Below, piece by piece: positions 42,108-50,574 of a DNA stretch of 64,000 bases. The stretch lies in the NCBI RefSeq assembly GCF_900176375.1, contig NZ_FWYF01000005.1, positions 62,001-126,000 on the forward strand. Direction: 5' to 3'. The stretch is from Reichenbachiella faecimaris. Lineage in GTDB: Bacteria; Bacteroidota; Bacteroidia; Cytophagales; Cyclobacteriaceae. The position numbers were made by a program, and so were the translations under genes. The stretch's first letter is position 1; every line of letters starts with the position of its first letter. Under the pieces are notes generated by a model. The model saw nothing but the letters and a program-made list of their open reading frames with translations. It was not told the DNA's origin and made no database searches.

Positions 42108-43310
42108 ATGAAAATTCAATTTAAAGACCTCGTTTGGGTAATAGCTACGTTATGGGTTATTTCATCTTGTGACATAGCGGACAATAAGGATGTAGATCCT
42201 GCTGATTCATTTTTGAGAATTTATGATAGTCATCAGTTCGATCATGAGATCAGACCCGTGGATATTGTACAAACAGCTGAGGGTGGCTATTTATTTCTTG
42301 GTAATTATAGACGCGAGGATGTGGACTTTCTGGGTACATACGTCTCTAGTGCAGATGAAGAAGGCCAGTTTGTTAGAAATACCTATTTAACAGACGACAA
42401 CGTGCACCCTGTGGGGAAGTTTTTGGAATTGGGTGGAGAACACTATTTTATCAGTATGGATGCTGTGAGCCTACAAGCCTACCTTAATCAAGTCAATGAT
42501 TCCGCTCGCATTGTGAGTACTACTGGCCTGGGCGTGACTTATCCTATGTATGCTGAGAATGATGGTGAAGATCAATTTGTATTGCTTAGTTATAACTCTT
42601 TGGATAGAACCACTATGTTGTCTTTGGTTAATGCAGACGGATCTATTGCCGCTCAGAGTGCTTTTGGAATAGGGGCGGGACAAGAGGTGGAAGAACCAAT
42701 CATTGATCACTTTACACGGACTGGTAGGGAATTGCCATTTTTTGCAGGCCGTTCTGTGAATGGAACTTATTATGCCAATGGGTTTTATAATTACACTTTG
42801 TCATTATTATTTACTGATTTGAGTGATGATACACCTTCTGGTGTTATTCAAGGCCAACAAGATCAGGGAGGTATCAGTAGCTTGATTTCTTTGAGTGGAG
42901 ATAATTATGGCCTGGCCAGATTCAACTATGGAGATCAGTATGCCAATGCCATTGCGACACTCAATACATTAGGAACCACTTCTTCAAGTGATTTAGCAGG
43001 CAGTCCCATGCTAGAGTGGGCGTATGGCGAAAAGGTAAAAATGACTACTATGACATTGGGTAGCTCTGATTATATCATTATGGCCACTACTACCAAGAAC
43101 CAACAAATCGTCTTGCATTTTTATGACAATGCAGGTGCTTATGTTGCTGTTGATTACCTAGGTTTTTCAAGTCCCTATCAGCTGGGAGCGATCCATGTCA
43201 CTTCTGATAATGGTTTGGCAATTCTAGGGTCTACTCAAGTAGCAGGTAAATTTCAGCGATTGTGTTTGTTTAAGAAATCAGAGAATGAACTCAAGGACTT
43301 GGTTCAATAA
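42108..43310 (+). CDS. Lipoprotein of unknown function, last gene of the envelope operon
   Basis: 400 residues. Lipoprotein signal (hydrophobic VWVIATLWVISSC, Cys at about 21). The mature protein is beta-rich with recurrent blades of the VQTAEGGYLFLGNY and TSDNGLAILGST kind, which suggests a beta-propeller. It follows the barrel gene after 6 bases. Downstream lies the operator-like repeat of a toxin-antitoxin pair, so the operon ends here. Confidence 0.8.
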   Translation: MKIQFKDLVWVIATLWVISSCDIADNKDVDPADSFLRIYDSHQFDHEIRPVDIVQTAEGGYLFLGNYRREDVDFLGTYVSSADEEGQFVRNTYLTDDNVHPVGKFLELGGEHYFISMDAVSLQAYLNQVNDSARIVSTTGLGVTYPMYAENDGEDQFVLLSYNSLDRTTMLSLVNADGSIAAQSAFGIGAGQEVEEPIIDHFTRTGRELPFFAGRSVNGTYYANGFYNYTLSLLFTDLSDDTPSGVIQGQQDQGGISSLISLSGDNYGLARFNYGDQYANAIATLNTLGTTSSSDLAGSPMLEWAYGEKVKMTTMTLGSSDYIIMATTTKNQQIVLHFYDNAGAYVAVDYLGFSSPYQLGAIHVTSDNGLAILGSTQVAGKFQRLCLFKKSENELKDLVQ

Positions 43311-43311
43311 G

Positions 43312-43345
43312 CGAAATATTTCGTTTAATTACGCGAATTATTTCG
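43312..43345 (+). promoter_or_regulatory. Twin operator-like palindromes of the Xre-RES pair
   Basis: CGAAATATTTCG at 43312-43323 is a perfect 12-bp palindrome. CGAATTATTTCG at 43334-43345 is an imperfect copy. Their starts are 22 bases apart, about two helical turns, which suits two repressor dimers on one DNA face. They lie just upstream of the antitoxin gene, where autoregulation is expected for Xre/MbcA antitoxins. Confidence 0.55.
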
Positions 43346-43353
43346 TACATTTG
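43346..43353 (+). promoter_or_regulatory. Putative -7 element of the Xre-RES pair
   Basis: TACATTTG, an exact TAnnTTTG match, directly after the second palindrome and only 3 bases before the antitoxin ATG at 43357. The transcript would start at or very near the start codon, so it may be leaderless. Confidence 0.5.
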
Positions 43354-43356
43354 TGT

Positions 43357-43764
43357 ATGGCATATAAAACGAGCGAGATCCTTAATTTGATCCATGATCC
43401 TGCAATTAGATACCAAAAGGCTCATGAGGGTATTACCAAATTAGATTTTTTGGCAGTAGTGTCTATGACAGGCATGAATTTGAAGGAATTTTCTAATTTA
43501 CTGCCAGTAACTAGACGAACCCTAGAAAAAGTAAAGGACAAAGAACTCATTAATGCATCAGTAAGTGATCGAATCTTACAAATTGCGGCTTTGTATCAAT
43601 ATGGAGAGGAGGTGCTAGGAAGTATCCCAGCCTTTCAGTCATGGCTCAAATCTGACCTATTGGCCCTGGCAAATAAAAAACCTTATGACTTTTTAAGTAA
43701 TAGTACAGGTTTATCTCTGGTAGAGGATTTACTTGGCCGCATAGAACACGGCGTTTATTCATGA
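43357..43764 (+). CDS. Xre/MbcA/ParS-type antitoxin
   Basis: 135 residues from ATG 43357. An earlier start at 43285 overlaps the lipoprotein gene and would read through the palindromes, so it is rejected. The N-terminal part carries a helix-turn-helix-like segment (FLAVVSMTGMNLKEFSNLL, VTRRTLEKV). The C-terminal part is the MbcA/ParS toxin-binding domain (FQSWLKSDLLALANKKPYDF, then STGLSLVEDLLGRIEHGVYS). It neutralises the RES toxin that follows with an ATGA overlap and probably represses the operon. Confidence 0.92.
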   Translation: MAYKTSEILNLIHDPAIRYQKAHEGITKLDFLAVVSMTGMNLKEFSNLLPVTRRTLEKVKDKELINASVSDRILQIAALYQYGEEVLGSIPAFQSWLKSDLLALANKKPYDFLSNSTGLSLVEDLLGRIEHGVYS

Positions 43765-44210
43765 TTTTTTTTCGGATCACGACCAAACCATATATTCATG
43801 ATTTGTCTGGGACGGGTGCTATGCGCTATGGCGGAAGGTGGAACCCTAAGGGTCGAAGAATGCTATATACCTCTGAGAGTCTTTCCCTGGCTATGTTAGA
43901 AGTAATGGCGAATAGTAGTTCAAATCAAATAGGTAAAGGATTTTATTGTACAGAATTGGAATTGCCCGATCAGTATAATGTCGGAGAACTTACCGTCTTA
44001 CCCAAAGGTTGGAACAGTTACCCTTTTTCGAATTTGACCATTGATGCAGGGAGGCAATTTTTAGACGGAGGAGGGTTGTGTTTGAAGGTGCCTAGTTCTA
44101 TTGTTTCCTCAGAATCTAATTTTTTGCTGAACCCTTTGCATGATCACTTTCATCACCTGAAGATAAATGAGGTCAAACCCTTGTTGTTTGATCAAAGACT
44201 TTGGAATTAA
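43761..44210 (+). CDS. RES-domain NAD-degrading toxin
   Basis: 149 residues. RES family: the Arg-Gly pattern RYGGRWNPKGRRMLYTSES near 23-41 with the conserved Arg (the Glu expected nearby is in LAMLEV), and the late NFLLNPLHDHFHHL segment with the conserved Ser/Asn region. RES toxins (for example MbcT) are NAD+ phosphorylases or hydrolases that arrest growth. Coupled to the antitoxin by a 4-base overlap. Confidence 0.93.
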   Translation: MIFFRITTKPYIHDLSGTGAMRYGGRWNPKGRRMLYTSESLSLAMLEVMANSSSNQIGKGFYCTELELPDQYNVGELTVLPKGWNSYPFSNLTIDAGRQFLDGGGLCLKVPSSIVSSESNFLLNPLHDHFHHLKINEVKPLLFDQRLWN

Positions 44211-44269
44211 TCAATAAAACGTAAACTTCTTTGAGATAACTTTATTCTTATAATAATGAAGCAACTATT

Positions 44270-44884
44270 TTGATAGCTTATCTAATTGGCCTTTCAGCAG
44301 GCCTTGTTCCAGCACTTTCTACAGGTCCTGTATTTCTTACACTCGTACAGCATGCCATTGATCATGGGTTTAGAAAGGCGGTTTATTTTATCGCAGGTGT
44401 AGCCCTGACAGATACGTCTATTATCCTCTTGACTTGGCTTGGACTGAGTCAAATCTCGGGAGGCAGTGAACCTCCTGCCCAGTTATCTATAGGCGGAGGG
44501 ATTCTCCTTATCCTATTTGGGCTAATTTTTATATTCAAAAAGGAATCTGAACAGCAACCAGTCGAGACCTCGTCAACTCATTTACAAAAGTTTGGTTTGT
44601 TTACTCAAGCCATTATGCTCAATGCCATCAACCCCATCATTTGGGGTTTTTGGGCAGCTATCTCCAATTACGCGATTGCTGAATTTAATGATACCACTAG
44701 CGAGTTGTTGTTTTTTGCAGGTGTATTGAATATGGTTTGGATCACAGATGTACTGAAGGCTTATTATGCGCAGAATCTGAACAAGTACCTGAATGAAAGG
44801 TTCAAAAAATACCTTCGCATAGGTATTGGCTTGGTGCTGGCTGTCCTTGGCGCTAAGTTGCTGGTGGAGTATTATTTGATGTGA
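44270..44884 (+). CDS. LysE-family amino acid exporter
   Basis: 204 residues with six membrane helices; LysE signature STGPVFLTLVQHAIDHGFRK near 17-36 and LNAINPIIWGFW near 121-132. The start is a TTG at 44270, because the only nearby ATG is followed at once by a stop in its frame. It probably exports an amino acid or related metabolite. It is the last gene before the AT-rich cassette. Confidence 0.88.
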   Translation: MIAYLIGLSAGLVPALSTGPVFLTLVQHAIDHGFRKAVYFIAGVALTDTSIILLTWLGLSQISGGSEPPAQLSIGGGILLILFGLIFIFKKESEQQPVETSSTHLQKFGLFTQAIMLNAINPIIWGFWAAISNYAIAEFNDTTSELLFFAGVLNMVWITDVLKAYYAQNLNKYLNERFKKYLRIGIGLVLAVLGAKLLVEYYLM

Positions 44885-44890
44885 CGGCTC

Positions 44891-45001
44891 GTGTATGGTG
44901 TCGTAGCGGATTACGTGAGCTTTAACTTTCAGAACAGCACCGAAATACGGGCGAGTGACAAAGCTCAAAACACCACCAAAACCCGCTATGCATTATACAT
45001 A
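44891..45001. repeat. Large imperfect hairpin at the left edge of the cassette (attC-like)
   Basis: GTGTATGGTGTCGTAGCGG (44891-44909) pairs imperfectly with CCGCTATGCATTATACAT (44983-45000), and GAGCTTT (44917-44923) pairs perfectly with AAAGCTC (44960-44966). The result is a stem about 110 bases long. Elements of this kind, with a CGCTATGCATTATA core, recur beside accessory genes in Bacteroidota as far as I remember, and they resemble integron attC sites in shape. Confidence 0.5.
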
Positions 45002-45003
45002 TT

Positions 45004-45013
45004 GTTGTGCGGT
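45004..45013. repeat. Inverted repeat, left copy, of the cassette
   Basis: GTTGTGCGGT here matches ACCGCACAAC at 48366-48375 as a perfect 10-bp inverted repeat about 3.35 kb apart, enclosing the large AT-rich gene. A 9-bp direct copy (TTGTGCGGT) occurs again at 45069-45077. Confidence 0.6.
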
Positions 45014-45111
45014 CGTACTTTTTCTTCTGTCAGCTTTGGCAAAGACATACTTATTGACAAGTATTGGATTGTGCGGTTGGCTTTTTCAAGCGACTTGGCA
45101 ATGTGTATGGC

Positions 45112-45123
45112 TTTATGCGTTGG
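45112..45123. repeat. Direct repeat, left copy, overlapping the stop codon of the ATPase gene
   Basis: TTTATGCGTTGG is repeated exactly at 48302-48313, 3190 bases away, in the same direction. On the minus strand it contains the TAA stop of the large gene (45113-45115). Stop codons inside recombination sites are typical of integron gene cassettes, so this may mark the cassette joint. Confidence 0.55.
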
Positions 45124-48100
45124 CATTTTGTAAAATTGGTTCTATTAATTTGATTAAATTGTCTATTAAGTTATCTAATGATTCTCCTGTTCTTACTATA
45201 GGTTGTGGAATTGTTCCACGATAATCTCCACTTAGAGATATTTCATTTTCAATGTCTTTAACAGAAAGGACACCATCTAAAATTGGTTTAAGTCTACTCC
45301 CAATATCATTTAAAACTTGAATCCGATTAATTATTTCTTGAATATTTGAAACACTGTATCTTTCCTTTTCTCCTATTTTATAATTACACATATCCACGCA
45401 ACATAAAGAGTAATTGTCTTTATTCTGAACTGCATTTTTCATTTGAAGAGGACTCATTGTAATTGAATTTCTACTATCCCAACGTGATTTAACTTCAATA
45501 TAATAAAGTATTGAGTTGTTGTGTTTTACTACAATGTCTTGTCCGCCTTGTTCATCACGAACTTTAATTTGAAAATCTTCTAACTCGATGCCAATTTTAT
45601 CCCTTATTAACTTTTCTATATGTGTACCAATTGTGTGCTTGAATTGAAAATCTGCTTTTTCTCGATTTTCTTCTTCTAAGGCTATTTTACCTAAATTAAT
45701 AATACGTTCTAAATCCGCGTCTCTTGATAATTCACCTAATAATGCAATATGCTTAGATTCTAATCCAATAATAGAAAAAAGGTCATTTTTTGTTTCAGTA
45801 TTTGAAATTCGAGCCATCATTATCGTGGCTTTTTTTTCTTCAATAAATGGAAAATACTTTGACCATTTGTTATCATCGGATATTTTTTTAATTATCCAAA
45901 GAATGTCCTTTTTATAAGGATGTTTATTAATCTCGGTATATGACATTGCATCTTGAAAAACTTTATCAATGCTGTCACCAAGATTTTTAGAATATTTGGT
46001 GTCGTTATCCTTTAAATATTTAGAGAAACCTGAAAGAATTAATGTACTTCTGACTTTTTTTTGAGGTTGAGTAATCCTATCAAACAAATCCTTTAATTCA
46101 TCAGAAATATCTCCATCTTTTTTCAATTCACTTGGTTCGCACAATTTAAAAAGTTGATTAGGGAATATTGGATGTGTTTTAACAATATCACCATATTCAT
46201 AATAGCTGTGAATTATTGATAATACGTTACTTAAAAAAGTTGAATTTGATTCTACCCAAGACTCATCTTTAGTATTTAGTTCCCAAATAAAATTTCTAAG
46301 AAGGCATTTTATAGGCGTTAGCCATTCAATTTCTTGATTTGCAACTGTTGGTAAACTTATAAATGAAGAATCAACACTATAGTACTCGCAAATCTGTTTT
46401 ATTAGAACTCCTCTTGTACCTGTATTATCAGTTGCAGGAAAGATCCGACAATATAAAATTAAAGCCTGTAAAGTGTCTTGCTCCAAAACCGAACCTTCCT
46501 TAATCGTCTTATTGAGTTCCGAAATTTGTGAATTAATATCTTTTGAAAAATGTTTTCTGTCGTATGGTTCAAAACCAAGGTTTAGTTCAAATCCTGATTT
46601 AATATATCGCTTTGGAATTTCTGGAACTATTGTGTCAGCAACTTCAATAAGTATTTCATCAATGTTATTAGTTGAGTTTAGCTGAGATAAAAGCCTAAAT
46701 TCATTTTTAATATTAGGCAATATTTTATGTTGATTAAAAACTTTACTAAAAGAGTATTTGATAAGATACTCATAGAATTTTTGTAATTGAATAGTGTCTT
46801 GATAGAAATCTAATGTTAAAGTCTTTTCAATTTCATTAACAATATCTTCTACTGTTATATATGAGATGTTTTCGTCTTCCCAAAAAGAAATGTTTTTTGT
46901 CCAACTACGAGCTATTTGCTTTTTTGGAATATTTTTCCAGAAAAGATTTGTAATAAAATAAACAGAATCGTAATAGTCTTCATCTAACAGTAATTCACTT
47001 GACAAGAAATTAACTTCATTTGCGTTTAACCTTTCTTCATCAGTTTCAACAATAGGGAATCCTTTGAATTTTTCAACCCATTTTTTTTTTAATCCAATAA
47101 AATATTCAGATAAATGAGTATTTGAAGTTCCTGTGTTGAAATTTATATATCCTAATAATTTAGGGTTTTCAATTTCTAATGCATATTTCTCGACAAATTC
47201 AAAAATTAGCGCAGAAGCTTTCTCAATTATACTCCTGTTATTTTTCTCTTTTTCCTGAACTTGTTCATTTTTACTCCTTAAATGAATTCCATCTCTTGGT
47301 TCTGTTGGTGCAAATTGTTTTGAATGAATCAAATAGTTAAAACCAAAATTTTCAGTACCTATTAAGGGGTAGTAAAGAAATAATTTTGAAAGATACTTAT
47401 CTAACTTTACTGCTTTGTTTTTCTCTGATAATGGAAGTACTACAACCAAGTCTTCTACTTCGGAAACTAAAGAAAATATTTTTTTAATGTTTTGATTAAT
47501 ATGAATTATTGAAGTTGTAATATTATCACCATTACTGGTTTCTCCTTTGCGATAAATAGTTTCTGTCCCGTTTATGTCATATACTTTTACCTTATTAAGT
47601 TTTTTGTTAATCCTCATTACATAAGGAAGAATGACTATTAAGCTATCAATTGCTTTAATTATATTTTGCTGCTCAAGAGGACTTGCTGCTTTATAATAAA
47701 ATGATGTATATGTATTACATTCAGTCTTTAATTCTCCATACTCAATTAGGTCAAAAACTTTTTGCTGTTGAGCAATGATTTTATCGATTAAATCATCTGG
47801 TTTTTGAATTATTCTGTCTATCTCAAAATTCTGGATAGGTATAAAATAATCACCTTCTTTTAATGAGCCTGAAACCAATATCTTTTTTCCAAAAGAATGT
47901 GTTGTTATAAATCCTGTTCCATATTGACCAACTTCGTCATTGTTATTTTCCGAACTCTTTGAACTAACTTGCTTTATTAAGCATCTTAATGTTTTAGATG
48001 TAAAAGGAAGTCCATTGTGCTTAAATATAATCCCATCATCTCTCTGCTCTATAATTATCTCACAATTTTCTGATAAATCAATCGCATTTTGAAAAAGTTC

Positions 48101-48250
48101 CCATACAGCTCTTCTCGAATGACTTTCCTCCAGTTTTTCAAAACCTTGAATTAATTTATCAGCGTGCTGTTTCATATCCTCACGCTTTGATTCGTTTTCG
48201 TCTCTTTTTCGTACTAATTTTCGATTTATAATATTCTCGCTATTTGTCAT
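45113..48250 (-). CDS. GHKL/Hsp90-like ATPase with C-terminal nuclease-like (DUF3883-like) domain
   Basis: 1045 residues. The N-terminal GHKL ATPase fold has the N box VWELFQNAID at 49-58 (Glu51, Asn55, Asp58), an FKHNGLPF box at 77-84 (HNG in place of the usual DxG) and a GQYGTGF glycine loop at 108-114. This is the sacsin/Hsp90-like branch. A helical middle of about 700 residues shows no motif I know. Residues about 880-960 have GGQDIVV (Asp905) and YYIEVKS (Glu919, Lys921), a D-x(13)-E-x-K pattern as in PD-(D/E)XK nucleases, in a DUF3883-like context. No signal or membrane segment. It is rich in Ile, Asn and Lys and clearly more AT-rich than its neighbours, and lies between repeats, so it was probably acquired. 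GHKL ATPases have precedent in restriction-like systems; a defence role is inference. Confidence 0.85.
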   Translation of the reverse strand: MTNSENIINRKLVRKRDENESKREDMKQHADKLIQGFEKLEESHSRRAVWELFQNAIDLSENCEIIIEQRDDGIIFKHNGLPFTSKTLRCLIKQVSSKSSENNNDEVGQYGTGFITTHSFGKKILVSGSLKEGDYFIPIQNFEIDRIIQKPDDLIDKIIAQQQKVFDLIEYGELKTECNTYTSFYYKAASPLEQQNIIKAIDSLIVILPYVMRINKKLNKVKVYDINGTETIYRKGETSNGDNITTSIIHINQNIKKIFSLVSEVEDLVVVLPLSEKNKAVKLDKYLSKLFLYYPLIGTENFGFNYLIHSKQFAPTEPRDGIHLRSKNEQVQEKEKNNRSIIEKASALIFEFVEKYALEIENPKLLGYINFNTGTSNTHLSEYFIGLKKKWVEKFKGFPIVETDEERLNANEVNFLSSELLLDEDYYDSVYFITNLFWKNIPKKQIARSWTKNISFWEDENISYITVEDIVNEIEKTLTLDFYQDTIQLQKFYEYLIKYSFSKVFNQHKILPNIKNEFRLLSQLNSTNNIDEILIEVADTIVPEIPKRYIKSGFELNLGFEPYDRKHFSKDINSQISELNKTIKEGSVLEQDTLQALILYCRIFPATDNTGTRGVLIKQICEYYSVDSSFISLPTVANQEIEWLTPIKCLLRNFIWELNTKDESWVESNSTFLSNVLSIIHSYYEYGDIVKTHPIFPNQLFKLCEPSELKKDGDISDELKDLFDRITQPQKKVRSTLILSGFSKYLKDNDTKYSKNLGDSIDKVFQDAMSYTEINKHPYKKDILWIIKKISDDNKWSKYFPFIEEKKATIMMARISNTETKNDLFSIIGLESKHIALLGELSRDADLERIINLGKIALEEENREKADFQFKHTIGTHIEKLIRDKIGIELEDFQIKVRDEQGGQDIVVKHNNSILYYIEVKSRWDSRNSITMSPLQMKNAVQNKDNYSLCCVDMCNYKIGEKERYSVSNIQEIINRIQVLNDIGSRLKPILDGVLSVKDIENEISLSGDYRGTIPQPIVRTGESLDNLIDNLIKLIEPILQNANA

Positions 48251-48284
48251 TTCAATTTATATGTTTTGTTTGAGCGTTGGTAAA

Positions 48285-48346
48285 AACAGCTCTTTTGGTT
48301 TTTTATGCGTTGGTTTCTGGGGTCGGCAAAAACCAAATGTGCTGTT
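48285..48346. repeat. Long hairpin upstream of the ATPase gene, right edge of the cassette
   Basis: Arms at 48285-48303 and 48328-48346 are 19 bases each and pair at 17 of 19 positions (AACAGC and TTTGGTTTTT blocks intact). The 24-base loop holds most of the second TTTATGCGTTGG copy. It lies 35 bases upstream of the start codon of the large minus-strand gene, inside its leader or promoter region. Confidence 0.65.
48302..48313. repeat. Direct repeat, right copy
   Basis: TTTATGCGTTGG, exact copy of 45112-45123, here in the loop of the hairpin at 48285-48346. A related GCGTTGG also occurs at 48274-48280. Confidence 0.55.
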
Positions 48347-48365
48347 TGTGCGTGGGCTTTAGTAT

Positions 48366-48375
48366 ACCGCACAAC
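48366..48375. repeat. Inverted repeat, right copy, of the cassette
   Basis: ACCGCACAAC, reverse complement of GTTGTGCGGT at 45004-45013. It marks the right outer limit of the AT-rich cassette. The rest of the stretch up to the uvrB stop (48376-48549) shows only a 12-bp palindrome TTAAACGTTTAA (48423-48434) and no gene. Confidence 0.6.
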
Positions 48376-48549
48376 GTAGTGATATGTAGACAAAGGTGAC
48401 TATATATCTATTATGTATGTATTTAAACGTTTAATAATACGTTTCTCTCAGAAGTGCTGCGAAGTAATGTTAGGATTTTTCAGGGAAAGATCAAAACACC
48501 GTGCATTTGTCTCTCTGGCATGAAAGAAGTAGAAAGTATAAAAGATAAG

Positions 48550-50574
48550 TTACTTTTCAGCGCTGAGCTTTTCCAAAGCCAACATCTCATCTCTCAATCT
48601 GGCCGCTTCCATGAAGTCCAAATCCTTGGCAGCTTTTTCCATGGATTTTTTGGTCTTTTCGATCATCTTCTCGATACCTGCTTTGTCCATGTAGGCTACT
48701 ACAGGATCTGCAGCAATGTTCGTTTCTTCACTTTCTATGTACGGCTTTGGAGTCGTTTGTTTCTTGGAGTCGGCCACGGAGGTTTGGCCCATGATGGATT
48801 CTTTAGACTTTTTCACTGTGGTTGGGGTAATGCCATGTTTGGTATTGTATTCCATCTGGATGGCACGCCTTCTGTTGGTTTCATCTATCGCCATTTGCAT
48901 GGAGCCAGTGACTTTGTCCGCATACATGATCACCATGCCTTTTTCATTTCTTGCGGCACGACCTATGGTTTGCACCAGAGATCTTTCGTTTCTCAAGAAT
49001 CCTTCCTTATCTGCATCAATGATCGCCACTAAAGATACCTCTGGTAAATCCAATCCTTCTCTCAGTAGATTTACACCGACCAATACATCAAAGACTCCCA
49101 AACGTAATTCTCTAAGAATTTCCACGCGATCGAGCGTATCCACTTCAGAGTGAATGTATCTGGTCTTTACTCCCGCATTGATGAGATATTTGGAGAGTTC
49201 TTCTGCCATCCTTTTGGTTAGTGTAGTCACCAAAACTCTTTCATCTAATTGGACTCTTTCTTCGATTTCATCCATCAGATCATCTATCTGATTGAGACTT
49301 GGCCGAACCTCAATAATTGGATCAAGAAGTCCGGTTGGTCGAATGACCTGTTCTACCACCACACCTTCAGACTTTCTGAGTTCGTAGTCACCGGGCGTTG
49401 CGCTCACATAAACGCTTTGGCCTACCATGCCTTCAAACTCATCAAAGGTGAGTGGACGATTGTCCATCGCGGAGGGTAGCCTGAATCCGTGATCTACCAG
49501 ATTTACTTTTCGAGCTCTGTCACCTCCCCACATGGCACGTACCTGTGGAAGGGTCACGTGACTTTCGTCAATGATCATCAGAAAGTCGTCTGGGAAATAG
49601 TCTAATAAACAGAAGGGGCGTGCCCCTTTTTCTCTTCTGTCGAAATAGCGAGAGTAGTTTTCTACGCCAGAACAATAGCCTAATTCTCTCATCATCTCTA
49701 TGTCGAATTCAGTACGTTCTTTTAGCCTCTTTGCTTCCAAAAATCTTCGTTCTTCTTCAAAATATTGCACTTGAAGCACCATGTCATCCTGAATCTGATT
49801 GATGGCCTGGTGAAGTAAGTCCTTGCCTGTCACGAACAGATTGGCAGGGAAGATAGTTACGATCTTTTCGTCTGATAACTTTTTACCTGTATAGGGATCA
49901 ATGCGCTGAATGGTTTCTATTTCATCTCCCCAGAAGATGATTCTATAAGCAAAGTCACCATAGGCAATGAAGATGTCTACAGTATCTCCTTTGACTCGGA
50001 AGTTGCCTCGTTTGAAATCAGCTTCTGTTCTGCTATAGAGGATATCCACAAACTTGAAGAGCAACTGGTTTCTGGTGATTTGCTGACCCACTTCCAACGT
50101 GACGATATTCTTACCAAACTCTTCTGGATTACCAATACCGTAAATGCAAGAAACGGATGCGACTACTATAACGTCCCTTCGGCCAGTCAGTAGGGAGGAA
50201 GTTGCTGCCAAACGCAGTTTTTCGATTTCTTCATTGATACTTAAGTCTTTCTCAATGTACAGTCCTGTAGTCGGCAAGAAGGCTTCTGGCTGGTAGTAAT
50301 CATAGTAACTAATAAAGTACTCCACTGCATTCTCAGGGAAGAACTGCTTCAGCTCACCATATAGTTGAGCGGCCAAAGTTTTGTTGTGACAGAGTACCAA
50401 AGCAGGCCTATTGGTATCGGCAATCACGTTGGCCATGGTGAAGGTTTTCCCTGACCCCGTGACACCAAGTAGGACTTGAGATGGCTCTCCATTATTCAGT
50501 CCTTCAGTGAGTTCGGCAATGGCTTGAGGTTGGTCTCCAGTAGGGACGTATTCTGAAGTGAGTTTGAAATCCAT
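48550..50574 (-). CDS. uvrB: Excinuclease ABC subunit B, UvrB
   Basis: 674 residues, normal length. Damage-verifying helicase-like subunit of nucleotide excision repair. Walker [11 protein letters not shown] ends at residues 43-44, the DNA-gripping beta-hairpin is in [20 protein letters not shown] (about 91-110), DESHVTLPQ is Walker B, and RAARNEKG is motif VI. A C-terminal UVR motif ([15 protein letters not shown]) binds UvrA/UvrC. It is the first housekeeping gene after the cassette. Confidence 0.98.

Follow-up and report, generated by a model that had tools for sequence, protein, structure and literature searches.

A Tiamat-family gene of Reichenbachiella faecimaris lies between hairpin repeats and was probably acquired as a cassette

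A 64,000-nucleotide stretch of contig NZ_FWYF01000005.1 of Reichenbachiella faecimaris (the whole stretch is called the window below) carries, between lysE and uvrB, a gene for a 1045-residue protein with a GHKL-type ATP-binding domain and a nuclease-like C terminus. What is this protein, and how did its gene come to lie there? An earlier interpretation, which we call the sequence-only reading, had seen in it a new candidate anti-phage or conflict system. We conclude, with a probability of roughly three in four, that the gene product is a TmtA (Tiamat) anti-phage protein and that the gene was horizontally acquired as a single-gene cassette bounded by two hairpin repeats, termed U and D. Acquisition and a role in defence are supported by the family match, the predicted folds, the conservation of catalytic-type residues, the presence of the same ends around apparent restriction-modification (R-M) genes and the lack of a match in all seven congeners. 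The open reading frame (ORF) is real and its coordinates are those read earlier; it begins with ATG, has no internal stop and lies on the minus strand, which had not been specified before. The plus strand read over the same positions contains many stops.

The protein matched the TmtA profile of PADLOC-DB 2.0.0 (PDLC03967) with an E value of 3.1e-291 and 967.5 bits, residues 15-1037 aligning with positions 6-1061 of a 1063-position profile. TmtA is presumably the protein of the Tiamat system, which was reportedly described by Millman and others in 2022 and which we take to be catalogued as a one-gene system. The setting at this locus is also that of a single gene, with lysE and uvrB as its neighbors. 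By this profile match the protein is a member of a known family, and the earlier idea of a new, unclassified system is unsupported. Similarly, the approximately 700 middle residues that had been thought to match nothing are not unmatched, because the TmtA profile spans them. PDLC03967 was the best PADLOC match in all nine diverse homologues scanned; six of the nine additionally matched PDLC03968 or PDLC03972, weakly and for the most part within the GHKL region. Shorter TmtA relatives of 840-889 residues were also seen in the class sample (loci L018, L020, L022 and L024); their main match runs over roughly the initial 570-630 positions of the profile, and a C-terminal part is matched as well by two of these four and by L026 and L027.

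The N-terminal half carries a match to the NCBIfam family P_loop_sacsin (NF047352) at residues 47-125 with an E value of 5.2e-16, and the plain Pfam HATPase_c match was weak (E 0.85). An AlphaFold (AF2) model of the whole protein, built from 80 of the 81 distinct homologue sequences described below, had a mean predicted local distance difference test score (pLDDT) of 87.9 and a predicted template modelling score of 0.65. When this model was compared with the PDB by Foldseek, Hsp90 chains ranked first, and gyrase B and MORC were among 49 matches at E ≤0.001. These results bear out the GHKL assignment of the sequence-only reading. N55 and GQYGTGF (108-114) lie where that reading had placed them, and HNG, which it had numbered 79-81, occupies residues 78-80. 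The usual GHKL motif at this place is DxG, with an aspartate. By analogy with Hsp90 and GyrB, E51 is the likely general base, and N55 would be the magnesium residue.

Residues 840-1045 were modelled alone, from 75 of the 81 homologue sequences. The predicted topology (pLDDT 92.3) is a helix, three strands, a short fourth strand, a helix and a strand, which corresponds to an alpha-beta-beta-beta-alpha-beta core. The best Foldseek matches, none of which reached an E value below 1e-3, were the Hjc Holliday-junction resolvases 2eo0 (probability 1.00, E 3.3e-3) and 4tkk (probability 0.99, E 4.0e-3), with SPARDA, EcoRV and DpnI nucleases as weaker matches. Within this segment lies a match to Pfam NOV_C (PF13020; E 1.4e-7), presumably the same domain as DUF3883. 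A 2013 survey calls DUF3883 a novel restriction endonuclease (REase) domain that occurs in an operon with R-M components (PMC3710099). The predicted topology, the modest structural matches, the NOV_C match and the survey support assignment of the C terminus to the PD-(D/E)XK nuclease fold. The model thus places the C terminus in a nuclease rather than a non-nuclease fold, and the D905-x13-E919-x-K921 spacing noted earlier holds.

Conservation was assessed in a homologue set comprising one ORF of at least 1000 residues per locus from L001-L109, from which shorter or broken ORFs and two copies of the window itself were left out. The set contained 85 sequences including the window protein, 81 of them distinct, and most were supplied by a genome scan from which the best 80 of 463 relatives were taken. 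E51, N55, H78, G80, G108, G111-F114 and G875 were present in all 81 distinct homologues. E879 was present in 78 (the other three have Q) and D905 in 77, with three of the four exceptions having an aspartate one column away; E919, K921 and Q936 were each found in 80. Thus N55, D905, E919 and K921, the residues that had been singled out from the sequence, are kept across the set. H78, G80 and the C-terminal residues are free of bias from the search patterns. The fourth exception at D905, a 1024-residue ORF on a viral contig (L108), lacks E919, K921 and Q936 as well.

The distribution of tmtA is patchy. No match was found in any of the seven congeners; matches occurred in 7 of 146 relatives and, at E 1e-20, in 15 of the 395 class genomes, both counts including the genome itself and partial matches. 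In a tree made by a quick method from 80 rows, an Acinetobacter copy was nested among those of Bacteroidota. Phage records contained no relative, and plasmids gave three partial matches, the one in Priestia being a short 'ATP-binding protein'. Viral contigs yielded no relative when searched with the protein alone; a search with the alignment returned two loci, L108 and one in which no ORF was found. lysE and uvrB are neighbors in six of the seven congeners, their matched stretches being 49 to 988 bases apart, and here tmtA stands between them. In three of those six congeners a small OB-fold-like ORF, read from sequence, lies in this interval. As had been noticed earlier, tmtA is AT-rich: its GC content is 28.8%, compared with 39.0% for the window, and is the lowest among the 34 window ORFs of at least 250 residues.

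Direct repeats within 8 kb around tmtA were short and chance-like, and the informative repeat came from whole-genome comparison. When both flanks of tmtA were searched against its own genome, each matched, besides itself, the same two further places, which puts the earlier description of repeat-bounded DNA in a stronger form. On contig C3 (L130:4563-7200), U and D enclose a helix-turn-helix (HTH) gene together with C5-methyltransferase-like and restriction-enzyme-like genes, and on contig C7 (L131:4000-6420) they enclose a C5-methyltransferase-like and restriction-enzyme-like pair; these genes were identified by reading the sequence rather than by profile scan and are therefore called apparent R-M genes. 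U lies upstream and D downstream at all three places, in the same order and orientation relative to the genes. U is a hairpin of GCACATTTGGTTTT, a loop and AAAACCAAAAGAG, with outer arms that vary between copies yet remain complementary. D is an imperfect hairpin that reads approximately CCACACACATTGCCAAG, a loop and CTTGGCAAAGAGTGTG in its commoner copies. The two repeats have the same architecture, consisting of an outer arm, ACA, an inner arm, a loop, an inner arm, AGA and an outer arm. The tmtA stop codon falls inside the repeat-matched stretch of D (45043-45117).

A covariance model of U found three strong copies in this genome, the one in the window and two others; the model (R1) had been built from 63 copies, that of the window among them. 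A fourth candidate at C7:1380422 scored 28.9 bits, had no defence gene among the adjacent ORFs that were read and was not counted. We also looked in the seven congeners for empty sites of the two other cassettes. For the one on C3, which has a hypX-like flank, the flank gene was present in one congener (G005), without R-M genes beside it, and the exact junction was not found; for the one with a TPR flank there was one distant match (33% identity), again with no exact junction found.

The exact pattern CATTTGGTTTT, a spacer of 6-36 nucleotides and AAAACCAAAAGAG was present in 52 of the 395 class genomes, this one included, with 83 sites listed, and the pattern read backwards gave zero in every row listed. 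An alignment of 63 sites was made from 60 hand-picked sites among the 80 outside this genome plus the three within it. The search pattern itself fixes most of the U stem, and covariation was judged outside it. At columns 24/86 and 25/85, 22 and 26 sequences retain pairing although both partners have changed (it is broken in 2 and 1), and at columns 40/70 the same is true of 27 sequences (broken in 8). At E 1e-8 the covariance model found U in 53 of 395 genomes of the phylum sample, this one included, and in none of 160 kb of other stretches from U-bearing genomes. Rfam gave chance-level matches only for U, and the open-licence literature searched held no description of it, although it may be known under another name. 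The hairpin-bounded cassette is the new part of this analysis.

The first ORF beyond U was co-directed and started -60 to 200 nucleotides from it at 57 of the 63 sites (median 69 nucleotides); the corresponding figures were 13% for random points and 38% for random intergenic points. Four of the six exceptions (L172, L189, L207 and L221, each in a different genome) have U at the 3' end of what appears to be one convergent epimerase-photolyase-like gene set, as read from sequence and, for L207, judged by gene sizes. D, searched as a pattern with up to four mismatches, followed 2-6 kb behind U at 12 of the 63 sites. The 414 kb around U gave 11 occurrences of the D pattern, one of them double-counted in overlapping stretches; 160 kb of control DNA gave none and 1.47 Mb around tmtA gave two. 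At L189, L190 and L194, D precedes U by a few hundred bases, so units appear to be tandem there.

What lies behind U was examined with the products of co-directed ORFs of at least 100 residues, with a maximum of two per site; this gave 89 proteins, and 54 of the 60 stretches contributed to them. Their Pfam matches, in overlapping counts, included N6_Mtase (9), Eco57I (8), ResIII (8), Methylase_S (6), HsdM_N (6), HTH_3 (6), DNA_methylase (4), HSDR_N (4) and HSP70 (2). As a control we used 89 of 138 ORFs from 20 stretches of the same genomes, with coordinates chosen away from U. No R-M family was among the 25 of 138 families listed for the control, and in PADLOC one control member had type II methyltransferase matches. 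The U cargo matched 584 PADLOC families compared with 41 for the control, which was shorter (27281 versus 46511 residues); this count is an indirect measure because the tool does not give the proteins matched. Further U sites found by the model (29 ORFs in 22 stretches outside the 63, some of them near-copies) gave N6_Mtase 4, ResIII 3, DNA_methylase 2, N6_N4_Mtase 2, Eco57I 2 and AccI 1, together with heavy-metal domain 2, AcrB-type 1, MerT 1 and YceI 1. The last four indicate that the cargo of U is not confined to defence.

We also took the nearest ORFs on the opposite side of U (n=55). Of the 42 families that they matched, 25 were listed, and these included integrases (5) and Methylase_S (1). 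One of the integrases had a relative no more than 1500 nucleotides upstream in the same orientation in 7 of the 60 stretches, two of the seven being short fragments, on the opposite strand in one, and in none of 20 control stretches. This tyrosine recombinase matched XerC-like and XerA structures with E values of 2.4e-39 and 2.7e-39, compared with 1.7e-34 for IntI4. Used as a query at E 1e-5, it found no relative in the 64-kb window, and no genome-wide search for IntI was made. This type of tyrosine recombinase was also seen on the same strand upstream of tmtA homologues, with one at L035:8978-9829 and partial matches at L032:8709-9125 and L041:9645-9812.

Do these features call for mobile ends, or could a shared regulator explain them? 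If U and D were transcription leaders or terminators common to R-M-like genes, tmtA would have a regulator rather than a carrier in common with them. The co-directed, close first ORF and the HTH families among the most frequent matches behind U agree with that explanation, and we regard it as a real possibility that we nevertheless doubt. It accounts poorly for D lying 2-6 kb behind U, for a pair of repeats that encloses a different set of genes at each of three places in a single genome, for the recombinases or fragments upstream of U, and for cargo consisting of chaperone or metal-transport genes. Moreover, the tmtA copies preceded by U are scattered over three distinct regions of the tree. 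At a little short of even odds, U and D may be the ends of an undescribed Bacteroidota mobile cassette system that spreads phage-defence and some other genes unit by unit. Each unit would be bounded by two hairpins of the common architecture and moved by the Xer-like tyrosine recombinase that lies directly upstream of some units, and tmtA would have been captured more than once.

The neighbors of tmtA homologues raise another question, namely whether TmtA belongs to R-M systems. Neighbors were scored at 78 homologue loci with profiles made from 6 hsdR-like and 3 hsdS-like neighbors recognized in a Pfam scan of 10 neighbors, which match by construction; some flanks were short, with at least 1.2 kb downstream available at 69 of the 78. 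hsdR was found at 16 loci, hsdS at 18 and either at 19. hsdR lay directly downstream of tmtA (≤119 nucleotides) at 10 loci, and hsdS within 1.5 kb upstream at 13, at 8 of them within 100 nucleotides. At 7 loci tmtA stood between the two, each within 1.5 kb, and at 5 of these both were within 120 nucleotides. The 129 nearest neighbors retained of 134 (5 were dropped for size or as copies) matched 391 PADLOC families, with restriction and specificity subunits of type I systems at the top. The neighborhoods of relatives thus include many restriction genes and are not solely housekeeping, and together with the TmtA match and the nuclease-type residues this supports the anti-phage guess of the sequence-only reading. 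PrrC guards or backs up a type I R-M complex, and TmtA might similarly be an accessory effector that guards or backs up such a complex when restriction is blocked, the stand-alone copy here having become detached. Besides the hsd neighbors, the U and D ends that tmtA has in common with apparent R-M genes in this genome fit this idea. We consider it unlikely, since 59 of the 78 loci had no hsdR or hsdS match within these profiles and flanks, the family is catalogued as a one-gene system, and tmtA at this locus is not in an hsd operon and adjoins no R-M gene. The earlier statement that the gene has no methylase or partner therefore holds for the adjacent genes here and fails for the minority of relatives beside hsdS or hsdR. 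An Hsp90- or sacsin-like chaperone or stress protein, with the nuclease-like domain a structural remnant and no part in defence, would suit the Hsp90 chains as the best structural matches and the sacsin-type ATP-binding domain. This is very improbable, because a remnant would not keep E919 and K921 in 80 of 81 homologues; the patchy distribution and the restriction genes among neighbors also speak against it.

Several points weigh against a TmtA defence gene acquired as a cassette. The mechanism of Tiamat is listed as unknown in one source (PMC10482375), and the literature searched held no experiment that shows its action. A PDB sequence search found no relative, and structural support for the C terminus is modest, the best E value being 3.3e-3. 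The place of the GHKL DxG aspartate is, unusually, taken by histidine (H78) in all 81 homologues, so ATP hydrolysis is not assured. The homologue set leans to close relatives because the best 80 of 463 were taken, and because the search patterns covered parts of residues 47-55 and 108-117, the invariance seen there is to some extent a consequence of how the set was collected. Only four of the 81 sources have U directly before tmtA, namely the window, L028, L032 and L054 (the last with 34.9 bits). Carriage by phages or plasmids is not supported, given no match in phage records and three partial ones in plasmids. Finally, the only conflict-related neighbor of tmtA within the scanned 43285-50574 is an Xre/RES toxin-antitoxin pair.

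That pair, identified by Pfam and NCBIfam, lies beyond lysE on the plus strand (43285-44210), in agreement with the toxin-antitoxin genes noted earlier, and had no PADLOC match. In two congeners the gap before lysE is about 65 (G005) and 226 bases (G002), so short that the pair, too, looks inserted. The features of the locus are given in Table 1.

Table 1. Positions in the window of tmtA, its predicted domains, the bounding repeats and the flanking genes.
Feature	Position	Strand	Evidence
tmtA-like gene (Tiamat family), 1045 residues	45113..48250	-	ORF reading; PADLOC PDLC03967 TmtA, E 3.1e-291, residues 15-1037
Sacsin-type GHKL ATP-binding core, residues 47-125 (E51, N55, D58, H78-x-G80, G108xxGTGF)	47876..48112	-	NF047352, E 5.2e-16; Foldseek Hsp90/MORC/GyrB
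C-terminal segment, residues 840-1045, predicted PD-(D/E)XK-like core with E879, D905, E919, K921, Q936	45116..45733	-	AF2 pLDDT 92.3; Foldseek; conservation
NOV_C (Pfam PF13020), residues 898-955	45386..45559	-	E 1.4e-7
U hairpin repeat; 15 bases between U and the tmtA start codon	48266..48365	-	covariance model R1, 93 bits
D hairpin repeat at the tmtA 3' end; CCATACACATTGCCAAGTCGCT at 45089-45110	45040..45117	-	own-genome flank matches, pattern
lysE-type translocator, flank gene; adjoins uvrB in 6/7 congeners	44270..44884	+	Pfam; congener comparison
uvrB, flank gene	48550..50574	-	Pfam; congener comparison

How might TmtA act? By analogy with GHKL clamps and VcSduA, we propose that it may work as a GHKL clamp under ATP control. 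Once ATP has bound through E51 and N55, the dimer would close at its N termini on either invading DNA or a product of the phage, with the middle region as the sensor. The closed clamp would then license the C-terminal PD-(D/E)XK nuclease (E879, D905, E919, K921 and Q936) to cut DNA, which could be that of the phage or, as a last resort, that of the cell itself. The scheme starts from the predicted folds and the conserved residues; that the protein closes as a dimer, is controlled by ATP, responds to such a trigger and cuts DNA is what we infer by the analogy. The predicted two-part architecture, with E51, N55 and H78 in one part and the five nuclease-type residues in the other, makes the mechanism of Tiamat directly testable. 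The relatives found beside and inside type I restriction operons add to the interest of the family. If the U hairpin marks the starts of R-M and other operons, it would provide a homology-free handle for Bacteroidota defence genes, and whatever lies behind U would become a defence candidate.

Several known systems bear comparison. Integron cassettes resemble the proposed units in being small, with folded end sites and varied cargo, and a tyrosine recombinase lies beside some U sites; they differ in that the recombinase associated with U is, by a modest margin, nearer XerA/XerC than IntI4. With attC sites, U (a covarying hairpin) and D (an imperfect hairpin) may have their folded form in common. 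Plant NO VEIN and animal sacsin have eukaryotic developmental or chaperone roles. They share with TmtA the sacsin-type ATP-binding domain and the NO VEIN C-terminal domain, whereas no HEPN domain was among the Pfam matches of the tmtA protein. In one report every Tiamat call made in plant-associated metagenomes fell on DNA of the plant (PMC12409356), so that profiles for this system may give too many calls when applied to eukaryotic sequence; our guess is that these calls likely represent the NO VEIN protein. The DUF3883 REase of the 2013 survey is fused to an SNF2 helicase, whereas the partner in TmtA is a GHKL ATPase (PMC3710099).

With Tiamat itself the protein has in common the full-length profile match, the GHKL N terminus, the NOV_C-type C terminus and, here, the one-gene setting, although other TmtA profiles (PDLC03968 and others) match it weakly and mainly in the GHKL region. 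Its placement in Tiamat is by way of the PADLOC profile. In Shedu the nuclease is DUF4263, whereas TmtA has NOV_C, with no DUF4263 among its Pfam matches up to E 1. VcSduA, a Shedu protein with a GHKL N terminus (paraMORC3), is nevertheless like TmtA a single protein with a GHKL ATPase and a C-terminal PD-(D/E)xK nuclease, and E27A and K557A are each reported to have abolished its protection (PMC12137116).

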